From Candidatus Peribacteraceae bacterium (GTDB lineage: Bacteria; Patescibacteriota; Gracilibacteria; Peribacterales; Peribacteraceae), in NCBI GenBank assembly GCA_018061945.1, contig JAGOTD010000002.1:186001-250000 (forward strand): a DNA stretch of 64,000 nucleotides, written 5' to 3'. Positions 6,458-52,128 of the stretch are shown piece after piece. Both the position numbers and the translations under genes were made by a program. Under the pieces are notes generated by a model. It ran no database searches, was not told where the DNA came from, and worked only from the letters and a program-made list of their open reading frames with translations. Within the stretch, counting starts at the first letter, position 1. Each line of letters begins with the position of its first letter.

Positions 6458-9166
6458 TTAGATACTATCGGCGCGAATAATGGCAATCGGCGTATCGTCC
6501 GGTTGTCTTTGCAAATCATTTTCATTCACTGAATCAGGCTTGGCAGCGGCAACTTCTTTTGGTACATCTAGAGCAGGCGGCGCAGTCGGACTTTCGGATT
6601 GAACAAAAGGGGTATTTACTTGAGCAATCGGCTTAGTAATTACTGGCTGACCCGGACTTTCTTTTACTGGCTCAATAGGAGAAGCCGAAACTGGTGGGGC
6701 AACGTCTGGCTTCATTACTTCTGGCACAGGTTGTGCAGTTTGCTGTACGGCAGATGGAGTTAGTGGAGGATTCGCATCGGGTACTTTAGTTTGCTGATCA
6801 GCTATTGGAGTTGCAGCTGGAGTCATAGCAGTAGATTGGGCAATGACTGGCGGCGAGGAAGCCACAGCAACTGGCTGCACTGGTTTGACTGTTTGAGGTT
6901 CGAAAACCTTGGAAGGAGTAGCAGGAGCAGGCTTTGGTAGCGACGGGGAATCTATCGCAGGTTTTATGACAGGAATGATGGGTGCAGCTGGAGAAGTTCC
7001 CAATGTTCCAGGATTCTGCAGAGCAGCCTGCTTCTTTTTGCGACGACGCTTACGCTTTTGACTCGCGCTTAAGCCAGTTGGTGGATTTTGTGGCTGACCG
7101 GGAATCTGCGTACCATTTGGACGTGGCATTGGATTTGGCCCGGCCTGATACGTTTTCTGTTGACCAGTAGGCTGTACAGGCGGTTTGACGGAAGGAGCTG
7201 CAACAACCTGCTCAGGTTTTGGCAAAGCCGGAGCCGTTTGAGGTGCAGACTGCCGGGGTGGCTCTGTGTTTGATGGAGCATCTGCCACATCTGCTATCAA
7301 ATTTTGTGAATCATCGGGTTCAGGTACGCTCACTTCGGCTTCTTCTCTATTTTCTGATTCGTTTTTTTGTTTATCTGGTTCCATTGCCCACTCAGCCGTA
7401 GCCTGTGGATCGCTCAGCATTGTCTCATTTAAGCCAGTGAGATCATCAACTTCCGATGCGGCAACAGATGTCGGTGTAGGGACCGACGAAGTATCAGATG
7501 ATTTTTCAGAGTGCGCAGACGCAGTCTTAAGCCAATCGGGAACAGGCGCATCGCTTCGAGTTTCTGGGACAGGCTCGGAAGTAACTGCATCGACAACCGG
7601 ATTCGCCGCAGTCACTTGCCCTGTAGTTACAGGTGCAACTGCATCAGGCTTGAGCCAGTCTGGAACAGATTCCTCAAGATTCGGTTGAGGCGCCAGTGGC
7701 TCAGATTTATTTGAAGTGACTGCATCTTCGACAGGTGCTGTCGGCGTATTATTCAGCCAAGCTGGTACTGGCCCGCTGCTGGCCAGTGGTACGGAATTAT
7801 CCCGATCCTTGGAACGGAATTCTGTCTTCGATGTTTCGTTTTGAATAACGCTTTCACTTACCGACTGGGAAGGAACCGATACGGTTTCTCGCTTGAGCGG
7901 CATTACCGAAACAGCTTCGACAACATCTGCTTTTTTCTCTGGCTTGAATAAATTATCTTCCACTTTTTCCAGTGTTTGCTGCAGACGGCCGGTTGTCATG
8001 CGCTTAATCCACGAAAGAAGGGCAAATAATATGAGTCCGATACTGACAATAAAGAAAATAATGAGTCCGACTTTTACATAATTTCCAATCGAACCAAACG
8101 AAAAGGACGAAGACGGGTTCGTGGTGGCGGAAGAACTGATGGACGGCGATGCTACCGACGATGCAGTCGAAGACACTGGAGCAGACGAAATGCTAAGAGT
8201 AATTGTCTGGGAATCGGAAAATAGTGGTTGAGTGGTCGCAAGATCGCGTACCACAAGTGATACTGTATATTGCCCTGGCTGCGAATATGTATGCGTTGGC
8301 GCATCGAGGAGGCTTTTGGCGTTGTCACCAAAATCCCACTCATAGAGCAGCTGATAATTCTGCAAAAGATTCATGGGAACATCCGAGACAAATCCGGCTG
8401 TAAGGCCGCTGCGCTCGATAGTAAAACTGCCGCTTTTTTCCGGCTGAGGAACCGATAGAGCTGTTCCGTCAAACGCTATGCGCACTTGCTGCATGGCCGT
8501 ATTGCCAAAAGAATCCTGTACATGAAGCGTGACTGCGCGCGATGATGTAAGCGGCCGTACAAAAATTGCAAGCGGTGAGCCCGATTGCTGGCTATAGGTA
8601 CCGATGGTATCAAAATCATTGTCAAACTTCCCATCGCCATTGGAATCGACGGTGTTTTGTAGATCTAGATTATACTGCGTAATATTTCCAAGTGACTGCC
8701 TGCCATCGAACATGACAAATCCGCCTTCGGATGGAACATGAATGTAGCCAGCCTGTACATCGGGAGAGGTAGAAAGCACTGCCTGTAATTGATTGCCACT
8801 ACCCGATGGAAATGTTTGCAAATCGGGCGTATCGGCCACTGTTATGTGAAACGTGTAGTACTCGGTTCGCGTGCGGCTTTGATCTTGAATGTTTATATCC
8901 AGCGTATACGTTCCTGCAACCGTCTGGCGTGTCTGAAAAAAACGACCGCGCTGTGCATTGATGAACGTACGATCTTTCGTAAGAATCCAACTGAAATCCG
9001 GCTGATCGATAGAAGTATCAACAGTAAGCTCGATCGTCTGTCCACTACGAATGGTGAGCGATGGTAGCGCAGAGGCTTGGCCCCAAACAGTAGCCGGCAG
9101 AACACACAGGCTCATAGCCAGTGTCAAAGAGTAGGCAAGCCGAAGCACGAACCCAAGACGTATCAT
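6458..9166 (-). CDS. Large secreted/membrane PKD-domain protein with proline-rich cytoplasmic tail
   Basis: The 902-aa protein starts with a signal peptide (cleavage near ATVWGQA, residue about 30). Residues about 35-330 are beta-rich and include a PKD-type domain with YEWDFGDNAKS and HTYSQPGQYTVSLVV. A transmembrane helix (KVGLIIFFIVSIGLILFALL) lies near residue 370. The remaining roughly 500 residues are cytoplasmic, rich in Pro/Ala/Val/Ser, with three copies of a VPDWLK-like motif (AWLN, DWLKPD, DWLKTA) and one basic patch (KRKRRRKKK). The start ATG overlaps the TAA of the upstream VirB2-like gene, so the two are translationally coupled. The function is unknown; a surface sensor or scaffold is plausible. 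Confidence 0.85.
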   Translation of the reverse strand: MIRLGFVLRLAYSLTLAMSLCVLPATVWGQASALPSLTIRSGQTIELTVDTSIDQPDFSWILTKDRTFINAQRGRFFQTRQTVAGTYTLDINIQDQSRTRTEYYTFHITVADTPDLQTFPSGSGNQLQAVLSTSPDVQAGYIHVPSEGGFVMFDGRQSLGNITQYNLDLQNTVDSNGDGKFDNDFDTIGTYSQQSGSPLAIFVRPLTSSRAVTLHVQDSFGNTAMQQVRIAFDGTALSVPQPEKSGSFTIERSGLTAGFVSDVPMNLLQNYQLLYEWDFGDNAKSLLDAPTHTYSQPGQYTVSLVVRDLATTQPLFSDSQTITLSISSAPVSSTASSVASPSISSSATTNPSSSFSFGSIGNYVKVGLIIFFIVSIGLILFALLSWIKRMTTGRLQQTLEKVEDNLFKPEKKADVVEAVSVMPLKRETVSVPSQSVSESVIQNETSKTEFRSKDRDNSVPLASSGPVPAWLNNTPTAPVEDAVTSNKSEPLAPQPNLEESVPDWLKPDAVAPVTTGQVTAANPVVDAVTSEPVPETRSDAPVPDWLKTASAHSEKSSDTSSVPTPTSVAASEVDDLTGLNETMLSDPQATAEWAMEPDKQKNESENREEAEVSVPEPDDSQNLIADVADAPSNTEPPRQSAPQTAPALPKPEQVVAAPSVKPPVQPTGQQKTYQAGPNPMPRPNGTQIPGQPQNPPTGLSASQKRKRRRKKKQAALQNPGTLGTSPAAPIIPVIKPAIDSPSLPKPAPATPSKVFEPQTVKPVQPVAVASSPPVIAQSTAMTPAATPIADQQTKVPDANPPLTPSAVQQTAQPVPEVMKPDVAPPVSASPIEPVKESPGQPVITKPIAQVNTPFVQSESPTAPPALDVPKEVAAAKPDSVNENDLQRQPDDTPIAIIRADSI

Positions 9167-34005: not shown

Positions 34006-34125
34006 TAAAGTGCAATGTATATCGCAAAAGACTCAATCCGCAATAACTATCTTCCCACCTGCCAATATTTTCAGTACAGTATGCGCGCAAATCGTATAAA
34101 TTGGTCTTTTGATGATCTGAACTAT

Positions 34126-34212
34126 GCCGATGTGGCGGAATTGGTAGACGCGCACGCTTCAGGAGCGTGTATCCTCACGGATGTGGAGGTTCGAGTCCTC
34201 TCATCGGCACCA
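34126..34212 (+). tRNA. tRNA-Leu (CAG)
   Basis: Acceptor GCCGATG/CATCGGC, anticodon loop TTCAGGA with anticodon CAG, long variable arm, encoded CCA at 34210-34212. Confidence 0.95.
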
Positions 34213-34246
34213 CGTAAAGCGCCTTTGGCGCCACGTGGCGAAGCCA
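34210..34246 (+). repeat. tRNA-trailer palindrome (copy 2)
   Basis: CCACGT-AAA-GCGCC-TTT-GGCGC-C-ACGTGG, then CGAAGCCA; loop differs from copy 1 by one base. It begins in the tRNA CCA. Confidence 0.85.
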
Positions 34247-34287
34247 ATAAGAATAGGAAAAACCTCACCGAAATCTTCTTTTACATA

Positions 34288-34548
34288 ATGTCTGCAACCA
34301 TCAAACACTCAATCGCTCGGCAAACACTTACAGCATTTGTCATCGCCTGTACTTGTGCTGTCTTCTTTTTTATTACCGATACCAGAGAATTTACCGAATG
34401 CACCGTCACGTGTATTACCAAGCATTACGACCAAGCAGTAAGCATAGTTTTTGCACTCGCACTTGGTGGAGTGGTATTCGTAAGTTCTTTTCTGGCACTG
34501 TTCATCATCCAAAAAAAGAATGCGAAGAGGCGAAGTGCTAAGAATTGA
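34288..34548 (+). CDS. Small two-helix membrane protein
   Basis: The 86-aa protein starts at the ATG at 34288; an apparent longer frame runs through tRNA-Leu and is not real. Two membrane helices (ARQTLTAFVIACTCAVFFF and SIVFALALGGVVFVSSFLAL) flank a loop with three Cys/Thr-rich residues (TECTVTCITK), and a basic tail (KKNAKRRSAKN) stays in the cytoplasm. Not recognised. Confidence 0.6.
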   Translation: MSATIKHSIARQTLTAFVIACTCAVFFFITDTREFTECTVTCITKHYDQAVSIVFALALGGVVFVSSFLALFIIQKKNAKRRSAKN

Positions 34549-34701: not shown

Positions 34702-34745
34702 TTCCTTCTCCTCGCAGGAGAAGGTGGCCGTAGGCCGGATGAGGC
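34702..34745 (+). repeat. Double-hairpin repeat, copy 1
   Basis: CTTCTCC-TCGCA-GGAGAAG followed by GGCC-GTA-GGCC and GGATGAGG. Its reverse complement recurs at 38824-38867 with one difference. Confidence 0.8.
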
Positions 34746-34746
34746 C

Positions 34747-35109
34747 CTACTTCGCCTCCACAAACCGCATGCTCAGCGAATTCACACAGTGACGCGTACT
34801 TTTATCAGTCAATTGCTCGCCTTCGAACACATGCCCTAAATGAGCATTGCAATTGGCGCATTCGATTTCGATACGATGGCCGTCGGAATCGGGAATGCGT
34901 TTTACGGCACCTGGAATTTCTTGGTCAAATGCTGGCCAACCGCAACCGGCATCAAATTTATCATCAGACCTATAAAGCTCTGCATTGCAACGTCTGCAAA
35001 TGTACGTTCCCTTTTTATAGAAATTATCGTACTCGCCGGTAAATGGCGCTTCGGTTCCTTTCTGCTCTATAACGTATGCTTCGTCGGGAGTGAGAGTGTT
35101 GAGTTCCAT
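34747..35109 (-). CDS. msrB: Peptide-methionine (R)-S-oxide reductase MsrB
   Basis: MsrB repairs oxidised methionine. The 120-aa protein has two zinc-binding CxxC pairs (ICRRCNAE and ECANCNAH), the substrate motif GCGWPAFD and the catalytic Cys in RHCVNSLSMRF. The length is typical of a stand-alone cytoplasmic MsrB. Confidence 0.96.
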   Translation of the reverse strand: MELNTLTPDEAYVIEQKGTEAPFTGEYDNFYKKGTYICRRCNAELYRSDDKFDAGCGWPAFDQEIPGAVKRIPDSDGHRIEIECANCNAHLGHVFEGEQLTDKSTRHCVNSLSMRFVEAK

Positions 35110-35230
35110 AGACTATGGATTGTGAGCTTTTGTCTAAATATGTGCAATCAGAAAACGTTCAATGTATCCGCGAAGGTGTGGCGAGATATCAGTAATTCGC
35201 GCACCCGCCTCCTTCGCCTAAAGCAAAATA

Positions 35231-36022
35231 TTAACGCTTGCGTCGTAGCTTACTTAAGAAGGAACCAACTCTTCCCAAAAAACTTTTAGTATTCTGGTGA
35301 GGCTGATCGGCCTGAACAGTGTCTACAGGTGAAGGCTTGGAAACGCTCATGTTGTTCAATGCAATAGCCGATAGCACTACTGTTGATGCGATTGCTGGAG
35401 TAGAACTTTCTGGCTCCACATCGCTACGCATAGTGCGCAAAGCATCGTCAAATACGTTATCCGGATCCGTAGCATCATCCATATCCAAATCTTCCAATGC
35501 CTCATCGTGCAGTATCTCAACTGGCTTCGTGACAGTTGTTGCAGACACGCATTGTTTCTGAACATCGGCAGGCAGACATTCTTGCATGGTGCCTTGCATG
35601 CCCTTGCCCCATGGCAAATCTTTTATGATGGAAGGATCGATAGACTTCCATGGAAGCTTCTTAAGAACGTTCGCTGGCACAGTTGCCCACTCCTGCTTGG
35701 TAATTTTATTCCAGAAAATTTCCGGTGGCTTACTCCAGTCAATCTTCTCCCAATCTGGAGCATACGAAATATGTACGGTTCTCTGCATTGTAGGCATCGC
35801 AGGCAAAGACTGGTTCGGCCGCTTGGGCAATTGCACCGTTATAACAGGGGTCTGAATATCTACATGATGTTCTGACATATCTATCTTTGGCATTCTTTGG
35901 GATGTCTGCATTTGGATGCCCGAAATGGCAACTGGAGATACAGAAGGGTTTATGGAAACCGTGCTCAACAGCTTTCGCGGTTCGAGATTTTCAAGTTCTG
36001 GTGCAAAACGACGAGTAGGCAT
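35231..36022 (-). CDS. LEPR-XLL-motif protein of unknown function
   Basis: The 263-aa protein begins MPTRRFAPELENLEPRKLLS, which contains LEPRKLLS. This fits the LEPR-XLL N-terminal sorting motif otherwise known chiefly from large planctomycete surface proteins. The rest is not recognised: a Pro/Met-rich region, a central Trp/Lys/Pro-rich segment (PDWEKIDWSKPPEIFW and PWKSIDPSIIKDLPWGKG) with short repeats, an acidic stretch (EALEDLDMDDATDPDN) and a basic end (LSKLRRKR). I start at 36022 because TATAAT overlaps the in-frame ATG at 36046. Confidence 0.6.
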   Translation of the reverse strand: MPTRRFAPELENLEPRKLLSTVSINPSVSPVAISGIQMQTSQRMPKIDMSEHHVDIQTPVITVQLPKRPNQSLPAMPTMQRTVHISYAPDWEKIDWSKPPEIFWNKITKQEWATVPANVLKKLPWKSIDPSIIKDLPWGKGMQGTMQECLPADVQKQCVSATTVTKPVEILHDEALEDLDMDDATDPDNVFDDALRTMRSDVEPESSTPAIASTVVLSAIALNNMSVSKPSPVDTVQADQPHQNTKSFLGRVGSFLSKLRRKR

Positions 36023-36141
36023 AGGGACATGAGAAATTATATACATTTTAATACTTATTTAGCATATGTCAAATACTAACTCTCCTTGCATGCAAAGCAG
36101 ATTATCATCCACTGACAAAAAAAATCCCTATACTTTCAACT

Positions 36142-36627
36142 ATGAACTTTCTTATTGATATGCCGTGGGATCTTTTTGGGAAATTATTTCTAGCCGGTTT
36201 TTTGGGTGCCATCATCGGTATTGAACGAGATTTAAGCGGTAGGCCAGCAGGACTACGTACAAACTTGATCATCGCTGTCAGCTCGTGCTTGTTCACTATT
36301 CTTTCTATTTATGCATTTGATGGCAGCGGTACAGATACGAGTCGTATTGCGTCTCAAATAGTAGTAGGAGTCGGCTTCCTAGGTGCCGGCGCACTCATGC
36401 ATCACAAAACACAAGTACTCGGCCTGACAACAGCTGCCGATATTTGGCTGGTGGCAGCCGTTGGCATGGCGGTAGGAACAGGCTTTGTTTCGCTTGCGAT
36501 CTTTGTCTCCATTTTCTCGGTTGCAGCGATTGTTCTCCTTGGGCCACTCAGCCATAGACTAGAAGGAATCGGGCAAGCGCGGATGAAGAAAAAAAATCTG
36601 AAGACAGTGAAGCAATCTCAAAAGTAA
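36142..36627 (+). CDS. MgtC/SapB family membrane protein
   Basis: The 161-aa protein has about four membrane helices and the MgtC core: GAIIGIERDLSGRPAGLRTN near residue 22 and GVGFLGAGALM near residue 78. MgtC proteins modulate magnesium homeostasis or ATP synthase in other bacteria; that role is inferred. TATACT lies eight bases before the ATG, so a leaderless mRNA is likely. The C-terminal tail is Lys-rich and lacks the extra domain of Salmonella MgtC. Confidence 0.9.
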   Translation: MNFLIDMPWDLFGKLFLAGFLGAIIGIERDLSGRPAGLRTNLIIAVSSCLFTILSIYAFDGSGTDTSRIASQIVVGVGFLGAGALMHHKTQVLGLTTAADIWLVAAVGMAVGTGFVSLAIFVSIFSVAAIVLLGPLSHRLEGIGQARMKKKNLKTVKQSQK

Positions 36628-37622: not shown

Positions 37623-38810
37623 ATGAAACACATATACCAATACATACGATCGGCAGCAAAGAATGTTCTTTCTCGCAAAGGCCACTCCTTTAGTGATCAA
37701 CTGCCAAAAACTGATCAGGTATCACTACAGCTCATTCGATTGATCACAAAGAAAAGCGTTCAAGATATATATAGTGAGCCAAGAACATGTGCCAGTCTCG
37801 TTGGACTTATGTATACGTCCGATACAGACAAAGGTATTGGCCGAATGAAGAAGGGAAAAGCATTTTCCTATATCGACCACGATGGTAAACGAGTGAAAAA
37901 TCCTGCAACAATAAAACGTATTCGCAGTCTCGTTCTTCCGCCTGCTTGGAACGATGTCTGGATTTGCGCCAACGACAAAGGACATTTGCAAGCAACTGGA
38001 ATCGATGCACGCGGTCGCAAGCAGTATCGGTATCATCCGCTGTGGAACAAGACTCGCAATCTAACCAAATTTCATAGACTCGTGCCGTTTGCGCAGCTAC
38101 TCCCGCGTATTCGTGAGCAAATCAGTCACGACCTACGCAAAACAGGTCTGCCACGAGAGAAAGTATTGGCGACGATTGTTTCGCTGCTAGAAAAAACTCT
38201 TATCCGTATTGGCAACAAAGAATATGCCAAAGATAATCAGTCGTACGGACTGACAACCATGCTCAATAAACATGTAACTGTGGAGGGAAACATGCTCCAA
38301 TTCCGCTTCAAAGGTAAAAGTGGAGTCATACATTCTATTGATCTTGTTGATAAGCAATTAGCCACAATCGTGAAACAATGCCAGCGCGTACCAGGAAAAC
38401 ACTTGTTTGAATATATTGATGATACCGGCAACTGCCAGATAATTGATTCATCGGATGTAAATGCGTATCTGCAATCGGTCCTCGGCGATGAGTACACGGC
38501 AAAGGACTATCGCACCTGGAAGGGGACTGTCCTCATGGCATCGCATCTGCAAGACATTGGCGCTTTTACGACGCAGAAAGATGAAAAAGAAAAAATCCGT
38601 GAGGCAATCAAGCGCGTGTCGCAGACACTTGGCAACACGCCAACTGTCTGCAAAAACTACTACGTTCATCCGGTTGTACTGCAAGCCTATCACGAAGGTT
38701 CGCTACATGTTGTGTTTGCCAAAATGTCAGGCAAAACAGGAGACATGGAATTTTTCAAGCCAGAAGAAAGAGCAGTGTTGCATTTGCTGAAGAATGGAGG
38801 AGGAAAGTAA
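37623..38810 (+). CDS. DNA topoisomerase IB (poxvirus-type)
   Basis: It relaxes supercoils through a 3'-phosphotyrosine intermediate. The 395-aa protein has the N-terminal DNA-clamp domain and a tyrosine-recombinase-like catalytic domain: Arg in IRIGNKEYAKDN, Lys in the KGKSGVIHSI hairpin, Arg in DYRTWKGT and the nucleophile Tyr in CKNYYVHP near residue 350. Such bacterial IB enzymes are scattered and probably exchanged. A TATAAT box precedes the ATG by about 14 bases. Confidence 0.92.
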   Translation: MKHIYQYIRSAAKNVLSRKGHSFSDQLPKTDQVSLQLIRLITKKSVQDIYSEPRTCASLVGLMYTSDTDKGIGRMKKGKAFSYIDHDGKRVKNPATIKRIRSLVLPPAWNDVWICANDKGHLQATGIDARGRKQYRYHPLWNKTRNLTKFHRLVPFAQLLPRIREQISHDLRKTGLPREKVLATIVSLLEKTLIRIGNKEYAKDNQSYGLTTMLNKHVTVEGNMLQFRFKGKSGVIHSIDLVDKQLATIVKQCQRVPGKHLFEYIDDTGNCQIIDSSDVNAYLQSVLGDEYTAKDYRTWKGTVLMASHLQDIGAFTTQKDEKEKIREAIKRVSQTLGNTPTVCKNYYVHPVVLQAYHEGSLHVVFAKMSGKTGDMEFFKPEERAVLHLLKNGGGK

Positions 38811-50097: not shown

Positions 50098-52128
50098 ATG
50101 TCTCCCGACCAAAAGTTCATTCCATCCCTAGATGGAATTCTGCCACCGGCGCCAGAGCCGCTTCCTGAGCCAGCAAAAAGCCCAGAGTCGCAGCAGCCAA
50201 CTCCTCAAAAGAAAAAACCGATTCTCTCCGGTTCTGTTTTTCTATTCATCGGATTGGCAATTGCATACATTCTGCCGGCACTTTTTCTTGTGGCGATCTT
50301 TCCGACTCCCGACGCCAGCCTGGCAAATGTAAAAATTGCCGGCATCGTGTTCTACGGCCTTGGAGCGATGGTGTGGCTAGGCATCGGCTTCATTGCTTTT
50401 CTGCGTATCGCGAACTTCAAAGATAAACCGCGCATGCAGACGAATGCCATGTTGCGCCTTTTCCTTATAGAATTGCCGCTCATTGTTATCAGCGCTGGTA
50501 CAGTGTTTCTGATCAGCCAGGAACCGGCTTTACGCTTGGATATTGTGTCCCCGGAAGAAAAAGATTTAGTCGCGCCGATTACGGTAACGTTTGGCACCAC
50601 CTCGGCCTCCGCCATTTTGAAGCAACAGAAATTAACACCGCTTAAATACCAATGGGATTTTAATAATGACGGCATTATTGATCAGGATAACTTTGATTCG
50701 CAGGCGACTTTTTTCTACCGACTCAAGGGTGACTACGTTCCGTCGGTGCGCGTAACGATGACGAGTGGGGTGGTGAAGAAAATTTCGCTGCGACTGACAA
50801 TCAAAAAAGACAGCTTCGCTGTCGAACCGTCACCGGTGATTATCGATGAACCGGTGAATTTCAGCGTCGCTCACCTGTTTGTTAAAAAGGAAGATTTAAA
50901 AAACGCGCAGTGGGATCTCGATGGCGACGGCAATACCGATGCAACCGGCACCGCACTCGAGACAAGTTTTACATATCGTCGCTTAGGAACGGTTTCACCA
51001 ACCGTCACGTTATCACTCGCGAATCAGACACAACTCAAACTCTCGCGCACGTTCAGTGTTGTCGATGCACCAAAGCCACCGTTTCCGGTCACACTCGAAA
51101 GTAACCCGACAACGCTGCTTGGCCCGCCGCCATTTCCTGTCATGTTCACGATCAAAACCGATGAGCCGATTGCCAATTTCAGCTGGACGTTTGGCGACAA
51201 TAAAAACGGAGAAGGAAAAGTAGTCGAGCATGTGTATCGCGAAGTCGGCAATTATACGGCTACGGCATTTATCCGCTCCCAGAGCGGAACAGTTGCCAAG
51301 CTCACCAAACTCGTGCGTGTGACCACACCGCTTTCCATAAACGATCTGACATTCGAAGGCAAGCCGACGGTGCAAGGCGATACCATTACCGGCGAAGTAC
51401 CGCTCACACTGGATTTAACGCCTGCCACTTCTCAGCCACTCATCAGTTTCCAATGGGACGCGCCCGATGCAAGCGAGGTAATTTCGAGTGACACCCGTCT
51501 CCAAGCAATCTATCGCAAAGAAGGCAAATATAAAATTGAGCTGATCGCGCACGACACCGACTACAAAGTGCTGCGCAAAGTGATTACAGTAAACGTACAA
51601 CCAGCCTCGTCGGTTGTGTCGTTCTCCATGGATCCGCTTACACCCGAAGCGCCGGCATCGGTAAAATTCGATGCATCGGATACCTTTATCCGGCCGGGGG
51701 AAGATGTAACGGGATTCGTGTGGGATTTCGGCGATGGGAACAGCGGCAACAATTTCTCGGGTTCGCGCATCGAACATTTTTACGATAAGCCCGGCACCTA
51801 CAATATTTCGCTCACGGTACAAACAACATCGGGCAATACCTACAATGCCCGCAAAACACTGATTGTCCGCGCACCACTCAAACGCGCCTGTTTTGTGCCA
51901 AGCCGCACGACAGGCAAGGCGCCACTTTCTGTTCGCTTTGATACAACCTGCACAACCGGTGCCTTCAATTCATGGCTGTGGGACTTCGGTGACAATTCTC
52001 AGAGCGATCTGCAAAATCCTGAGCCACACGTATTTAAGGATCCGGGCGAGTATGTGGTACTATTCTCTGCGACCACAAAAGACGGAACGAAAGACACGTT
52101 TAGATCCGTCATTTCCGTTTCTCCATAA
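50098..52128 (+). CDS. Membrane-anchored multi-PKD-domain surface protein
   Basis: The 676-aa protein has a cytoplasmic Pro-rich N-terminus, three membrane helices (about 45-65, 80-100 and 120-140), then an extracytoplasmic array of about five PKD-like domains, recognised by YQWDFNNDGIIDQDN, FSWTFGDNKN, FVWDFGDGNSG and WLWDFGDNSQS with matching HVY/HFYDKPGTYNISLTV ends. Two domains contain DxDGDG-like calcium loops (WDLDGDGNTD). It is preceded by GAGGAGG, an unusual Shine-Dalgarno in this genome, fitting an internal operon gene after the lipoprotein. Confidence 0.9.
   Translation: MSPDQKFIPSLDGILPPAPEPLPEPAKSPESQQPTPQKKKPILSGSVFLFIGLAIAYILPALFLVAIFPTPDASLANVKIAGIVFYGLGAMVWLGIGFIAFLRIANFKDKPRMQTNAMLRLFLIELPLIVISAGTVFLISQEPALRLDIVSPEEKDLVAPITVTFGTTSASAILKQQKLTPLKYQWDFNNDGIIDQDNFDSQATFFYRLKGDYVPSVRVTMTSGVVKKISLRLTIKKDSFAVEPSPVIIDEPVNFSVAHLFVKKEDLKNAQWDLDGDGNTDATGTALETSFTYRRLGTVSPTVTLSLANQTQLKLSRTFSVVDAPKPPFPVTLESNPTTLLGPPPFPVMFTIKTDEPIANFSWTFGDNKNGEGKVVEHVYREVGNYTATAFIRSQSGTVAKLTKLVRVTTPLSINDLTFEGKPTVQGDTITGEVPLTLDLTPATSQPLISFQWDAPDASEVISSDTRLQAIYRKEGKYKIELIAHDTDYKVLRKVITVNVQPASSVVSFSMDPLTPEAPASVKFDASDTFIRPGEDVTGFVWDFGDGNSGNNFSGSRIEHFYDKPGTYNISLTVQTTSGNTYNARKTLIVRAPLKRACFVPSRTTGKAPLSVRFDTTCTTGAFNSWLWDFGDNSQSDLQNPEPHVFKDPGEYVVLFSATTKDGTKDTFRSVISVSP

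Follow-up and report, generated by a model that had tools for sequence, protein, structure and literature searches.

An N-terminal LEPR-XLL-type motif on an orphan protein of a Peribacteraceae bacterium and its recurrence in the family

A minus-strand open reading frame of Candidatus Peribacteraceae bacterium (ORF 35231-36046 of the window, i.e., of the entire stretch of 64,000 nucleotides analysed here) carries the sequence LENLEPRKLLS near its N-terminus, and N-termini of the same type recur in proteins encoded by other genomes of the family. The original prediction had described this motif on a 263-aa protein devoid of any recognized domain; the observation is confirmed, while the interpretation attached to it, namely transfer or the existence of a matching sorting system, is partly supported. 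With moderate confidence, we regard the protein as specific to its lineage and as a client of a non-classical N-terminal signal for export or sorting that spans the family. The first ca. 20 residues (TRR, followed by LExLExRxLLST) would then constitute a targeting signal of the planctomycete type (LEPR-XLL/Planc_extracel), which appears to head a variety of proteins of the family, most of them long and some with domain types of surface or extracellular proteins. Such a signal may take the place of a classical Sec signal peptide, combining a basic stretch with the lack of a strongly hydrophobic core. A putative machinery would recognize, and possibly process, the LExLExRxLLS segment and deliver the protein to the surface or the exterior of the cell, with the window protein as a small lineage-specific client of this putative route, perhaps co-transcribed with msrB. 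The features of the locus are collected in Table 1.

Table 1. Features at and around the gene for the motif protein (positions refer to the window; expected numbers of promoter-like sites were taken from shuffles and indicate no excess in the region).
Feature	Position	Strand	Remark
LEPR-motif protein, 263 aa from the inner ATG	35231..36022	-	orphan, without known domain
Core motif LENLEPRKLLST	35960..35995	-	form [FLVM]E.LE.R.[LM][LM][SA]x
Promoter-like TTGACA-16-TAAAAT (11/12)	36045..36072	-	overlaps first ATG; 3 found in region vs. 3.1 expected
MsrB (SelR domain)	34747..35109	-	next downstream, 121 bases past the LEPR ORF
Terminator-like hairpin	34704..34724	-	directly 3' of msrB; 2 such sites in region vs. 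1.3 expected
MgtC-family membrane protein	36142..36627	+	divergent neighbour

Recurrence in the family was assessed with profile A5, which comprises 16 N-termini including those of both motif proteins from the window's own genome. At E ≤ 0.05 this profile returned 57 matches distributed over 33 of the 57 family genomes, as compared with two matches in two genomes for the reversed profile that served as control. Twelve of the matches coincide with rows of the profile or duplicate one of them exactly; the other 45 come from 28 genomes. No match was obtained for 24 family genomes, some of which are incomplete, and G001, a member of the same genus, is likewise without one. The matches are located N-terminally: in 51 of the 56 with DNA sequence available (all except that in G003), no more than 100 aa separate the match from the first possible start codon upstream, vs. 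11.0 expected for uniform positions in open frames, and the median open frame of the family matches amounts to 696 aa. Contamination fails to explain these matches because genomes assembled into a single contig (G028, G030) also contain them. Several proteins sharing the motif, which the original prediction had proposed to look for, are therefore at hand, both within the genome and among its relatives, and this recurrence favours a matching sorting system in the organism.

In a set of 379 genomes from the phylum, 15 matched A5 at E ≤ 0.01, 11 of the 16 belonging to the window's family and four of the 363 others. We reject these figures as an indication of concentration in the family, since every positive genome other than G030 and G123, hence 13 of the 15, had contributed rows to A5 and the result is thus largely one of construction. 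Of the curated models, PF07595 (Planc_extracel, cut-off 25.5 bits) matched at E ≤ 0.5 in 11 of the 16 family genomes vs. 55 of the 363 others, many of its family matches being N-terminal within long frames, and exceeded its own cut-off in two of the 379 genomes. NF012209 (LEPR-XLL, cut-off 17 bits) gave no clear concentration at E ≤ 0.5 (four of 16 vs. 59 of 363). Eight of its matches in the phylum lie above the cut-off, and four of these (G020, G163, G190, G230) lie close to the N-terminal end of frames that are open for 172 to 1,409 aa; among the 30 best matches, which were viewed in context, many belong to short frames and have the appearance of chance hits. The gene order pyrE-LEPR-pheS common to G020 and G230 was considered as a case of conservation across families and rejected: over 5,076 bases, 99.6% identity links the contig of G230 (G230:C29), a genome placed in another family, with a contig of G034 (G034:C33) from the window's own family, so that the shared order is not independent of the family. 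Judging from this identity, the G230 contig is probably misbinned.

The second motif protein of the window's own genome (G000:C2:87490-88644, L188:3491-4645) comprises 384 aa, contains MSLVSAIRTIFPGRVRPIKRRSRNVVLSVFGPSAFDSLETRALLSG with the motif at residue 35, and did not yield a domain in a Pfam scan. It scored 18 bits (E 0.0049) with A4, a profile of seven rows to which it does not belong; a third match in the genome was weak with the same profile (11.2 bits, E 0.73). Two ABC exporters are encoded upstream of it on the same strand. In the neighbourhoods listed, inspection by eye did not reveal a recurrent partner gene beside the motif genes.

In the 51 rows other than that of the window protein, the core mostly reads [FVLI]-E-x-L-E-x-R-x-[LM]-[LM]-[SA]-[AGVT], with glutamate at position 2 in 50, glutamate at position 5 in 50 and arginine at position 7 in all 51. 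The basic stretch ahead of the core carries a net charge of +2 to +11 in 16 full proteins and of only +1 in the window protein, the core of which spans residues 10-21 of the 263-aa form. Neither the window protein nor any of 16 further motif proteins exhibits a Sec-like hydrophobic core by our hydropathy measure: the maximum over 15 residues is 1.17 in the former and, within the first 90 residues, 0.21-1.59 in the latter, none of which reaches 1.6. Five hand-picked, exported-looking proteins of the window gave 1.80-2.67 in their first 70 residues (one other protein, 0.07), such that a narrow margin separates the highest motif protein (1.59) from the lowest exported-looking control (1.80). Two PKD-domain proteins of the window (6458-9166, 902 aa, and 50098-52128, 676 aa) have hydrophobic segments in their first 70 residues; lacking the LEPR motif, they are ordinary surface candidates. 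Hydrophobic N-termini of window proteins, together with large cysteine-rich exported proteins of Peribacteria, most of which have a predicted signal peptide (PMC4736985), indicate that an ordinary signal-peptide route is in use as well.

Pfam domains above cut-off were found in nine of 21 scanned motif proteins and none in the other 12. The domains are DUF11, dockerin (on the contig shared by G230 and G034), RTX repeats (in L179 and L182, both of the family), laminin G, lipase, Big_9/cadherin and NPP1. The NPP1 match (26.3 bits, cut-off 21) is located near the C-terminus of a motif protein of 1,769 aa (L181:402-5708, G419:C13). These data bear on an alternative reading in which the motif is real and shared and yet serves another purpose, for instance in docking, retention or regulation within the cytosol, or as a tag acting after Sec-dependent passage. 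It is in favour of this reading that export of the proteins discussed here is deduced from sequence and that in planctomycetes, too, the motif is only "thought to represent" an export signal (PMC8567305). We nevertheless consider it unlikely, given that domains of extracellular type occur on nine of the 21 scanned proteins and that the 16 measured N-termini are without a Sec-like hydrophobic core.

Returning to the proposed export or sorting signal, the assignment of the window protein itself to this group depends on the profile used. Neither the complete protein nor its N-terminal 24, 40 or 63 aa were reported by NF012209 at E ≤ 10, and the best score in the own genome, 8.8 bits, was obtained at another site; the search with the LEPR-XLL model put forward in the original prediction was hence negative for protein and genome alike. 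PF07595 scored the protein below cut-off (12.2 bits, E 0.431). NF012209 misses the protein because the lysine after the arginine is a costly residue: an altered copy with leucine in its place reached 17.8 bits, as compared with 11.0-11.3 bits for copies in which T was changed to A, L to F or N to Q. By these curated models alone, the motif would pass for chance. Simple patterns gave a graded picture. LEPRxLL alone occurs once in the genome, as does the backwards pattern, which is not significant; the looser L-E-x-R-x-L-L gave nine matches vs. five backwards; and the fuller consensus [FLMVIY]E.[LC]E.R.[LMVY][LMF][SADT], which was composed after the rows had been seen, occurs once in the six-frame translation of the window and in none of 30 rounds of residue shuffling.

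Profiles freed of rows from the own genome were searched against 1,240 ORFs, and the resulting E-values apply to that small database. With 14 rows, the window ORF attained 4.9 bits (E 1.4, rank 4 of 1,240), whereas with 50 rows it attained 18.6 bits (E 5.7e-5) and rank 1, followed by the second own protein with 11.8 bits; the best other ORF of the window remained at 3.8 bits. The 50 rows consist of 41 non-seed family rows and ten family seed rows with one duplicate left out. Counted from the matches, the 57 in the family were reduced to 53 rows by the loss of that in G003, of two that contain a stop or are too short and of one without core, the latter being a second match inside an ORF already counted, and to 50 by removal of the two own rows and one duplicate. 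All of the 41 placed non-seed rows score at least 13.0 bits with the 14-row own-free profile and are therefore independent of the window protein. The profile test is thus positive only with a clade-tuned profile of sufficient size, i.e., 50 rather than 14 rows. A chance origin of LENLEPRKLLS in the N-terminal region of a young orphan ORF would accord with the silence of the curated model, with LEPRxLL being no commoner than its backwards control, with the low score of the 14-row profile and with the atypical codon usage reported below. We judge it quite improbable in view of the first rank with the larger own-free profile, the position of the motif at the N-terminus where it is expected, its recurrence in the family and the absence of the fuller consensus from the shuffled sequences. 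Chance had been the outcome foreseen in the original prediction for a low model score combined with the lack of any other motif protein; the score is indeed low, but other such proteins exist.

The ORF measures 271 aa when counted from its first ATG (36046); the start assumed in the original prediction, an ATG at 36022, gives a protein of 263 aa that begins MPTRRFAPELENLEPRKLLSTVSI. The promoter-like element ends on the first ATG, so that transcription would commence within the first codons, which makes the start at 36022 the likelier one. A scan against Pfam and NCBIfam reported no family for the ORF. Its coding frame has the highest codon score of all six (0.121, compared with -0.324 to 0.029 for the other five), and its GC content of 0.46 lies inside the range of the window genes. 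Synonymous codon bias amounts to -0.007, lower than in any of the 31 window genes compared (0.005-0.194), although these genes are at an advantage here, having also trained the table. In sum, ORF 35231-36022 is probably a real, atypical and young gene. A single-sequence fold of the protein reached a mean pLDDT of only 44.1. Tryptophan-rich near-repeats (W..I....I.K.LPW) were noticed by eye at window positions 35590-35760 (ORF residues about 98-150); when sought with two patterns across the collected loci, they were found in the window protein only.

The host genome comprises 1,369,190 bases in 15 contigs. In a genome of the same genus, on record as uncultured Candidatus Peregrinibacteria, the genes for MsrB (92.5% identity), MgtC (81%), an aminotransferase (83%) and topoisomerase IB (74%) lie in the same order as in the host. 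This one record supplies the name by which the host is placed in the CPR and outside Planctomycetota. The gap between msrB and mgtC, however, spans 1,032 bases in the host vs. 144 in the relative, where no LEPR gene intervenes, and alignment of the inter-gene regions of the two genomes yielded nothing except this difference in length. Since the gene is absent from the locus in the relative, it was either gained in the host or lost in the relative. Co-transcription of the LEPR ORF with msrB is possible. Further observations were made in the surroundings: a 177-aa ORF at window positions 34015-34548 overlaps a tRNA gene (34126-34209), and its first half is probably spurious; topoisomerase IB (window 37623-38810), consisting of Topoisom_I and the bacterial N-terminal domain, is encoded here in a small CPR genome; and in L022 (G057:C1), from a genome of the same class, the MgtC match crosses four TGA codons, as if TGA were recoded there.

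Recent transfer of the gene together with its motif from a planctomycete or another bacterium, which the original prediction had entertained, would agree with its location between conserved neighbours, its absence from the same-genus genome and its codon bias below that of all window genes compared. No donor emerged from the collections searched. A search for the whole protein in 59 relatives yielded no convincing homologue (best match outside the own genome, E 0.034), nor did a close-relative search across 84,980 species genomes by a method that needs exact seeds of eight residues. The GC content is inconspicuous, direct repeats of at least 14 bases were not found at 35050-36200, and motifs of this type are frequent in the host's own family. 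Taken together, transfer appears slightly less credible still than a chance origin of the motif. An assembly or binning artefact, i.e., a foreign contig in a CPR genome, is highly improbable: one misplaced contig was indeed met among the genomes compared (G230:C29), but a Peregrinibacteria contig carries counterparts of the gene's four nearest conserved neighbours in collinear order and at 74-93% identity, which already contradicts an artefact, and one-contig genomes also carry matches.

The proposed signal may be set against several known systems. NF012209 (LEPR-8K) denotes, as its name conveys, a class of very large proteins with extracellular repeats. The window protein shares with them the N-terminal LExR-x-LL-S core and differs by its length of 263 aa and the lack of a Pfam domain; other N-termini of its family are reported by this model (17.2 bits in G020 and 14.9 bits in G024). 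Double-glycine leaders of peptide-exporting ABC transporters are short and N-terminal, end in small residues and have no hydrophobic core. In these respects the LEPR-type signal, a short N-terminal leader that ends in small residues and is without hydrophobic core, resembles them, whereas it lacks the double glycine, and no C39 peptidase domain was reported in the two ABC exporters encoded upstream of the second own protein, of which the first is truncated in the sequence extract. PF07595 represents a cell-surface signal of Rhodopirellula with the consensus RRLxxExLExRxLLA (PMC8567305). The same N-terminal arrangement, basic residues followed by ExLExRxLL, is present in the window protein, the host of which is a member of the CPR rather than a planctomycete and the basic region of which is weak. 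In the planctomycete Tuwongella, this type of motif marks 52 genes; proteomics detected the products of 20, eight of these only in fraction S3 (PMC8567305).

Occurrence of LEPR-XLL outside Planctomycetes, to which the original prediction had drawn attention and which holds for the CPR host studied here, is already in print for Limnohabitans (PMC9611531) and for Vibrio sp. VB16, in which a giant of ~8000 aa combines the motif with RTX and seralysin domains (PMC10868602). The Vibrio protein resembles the group described here in the N-terminal position of its LEPR-XLL motif and in its RTX domains, which L179 and L182 of the window's family possess as well, and it differs from the window protein by its Gram-negative host and its giant size. 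A survey of adhesins counts Planc_extracel among signal peptides (PMC10952558), and the portions of the cited papers covered here name no machinery for the N-terminal surface signal of the planctomycete type. No report of the motif in CPR was found in the literature searched, subscription journals and preprints excepted; under automatic annotation at NCBI, some of these proteins may bear the name LEPR-XLL already.

That an ultra-reduced CPR lineage runs a dedicated export route independent of Sec signals and keyed to the planctomycete-type LExLExRxLLS segment is a tentative and somewhat doubtful extension of the client reading preferred above. If true, the machinery would have to fit into a genome of ~1.2 Mb and into an envelope unlike that of planctomycetes, and presence or absence of the signal inside one family would indicate the translocase through phylogenetic profiling. 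With 33 signal-positive and 24 signal-negative genomes out of 57, all of them small, the family offers a compact data set for such a search for partner genes. A published list of bacterial phyla with an enrichment in huge proteins includes Peregrinibacteria (PMC11573180), and the signal described here suggests one way in which these bacteria could send large surface proteins out of the cell.
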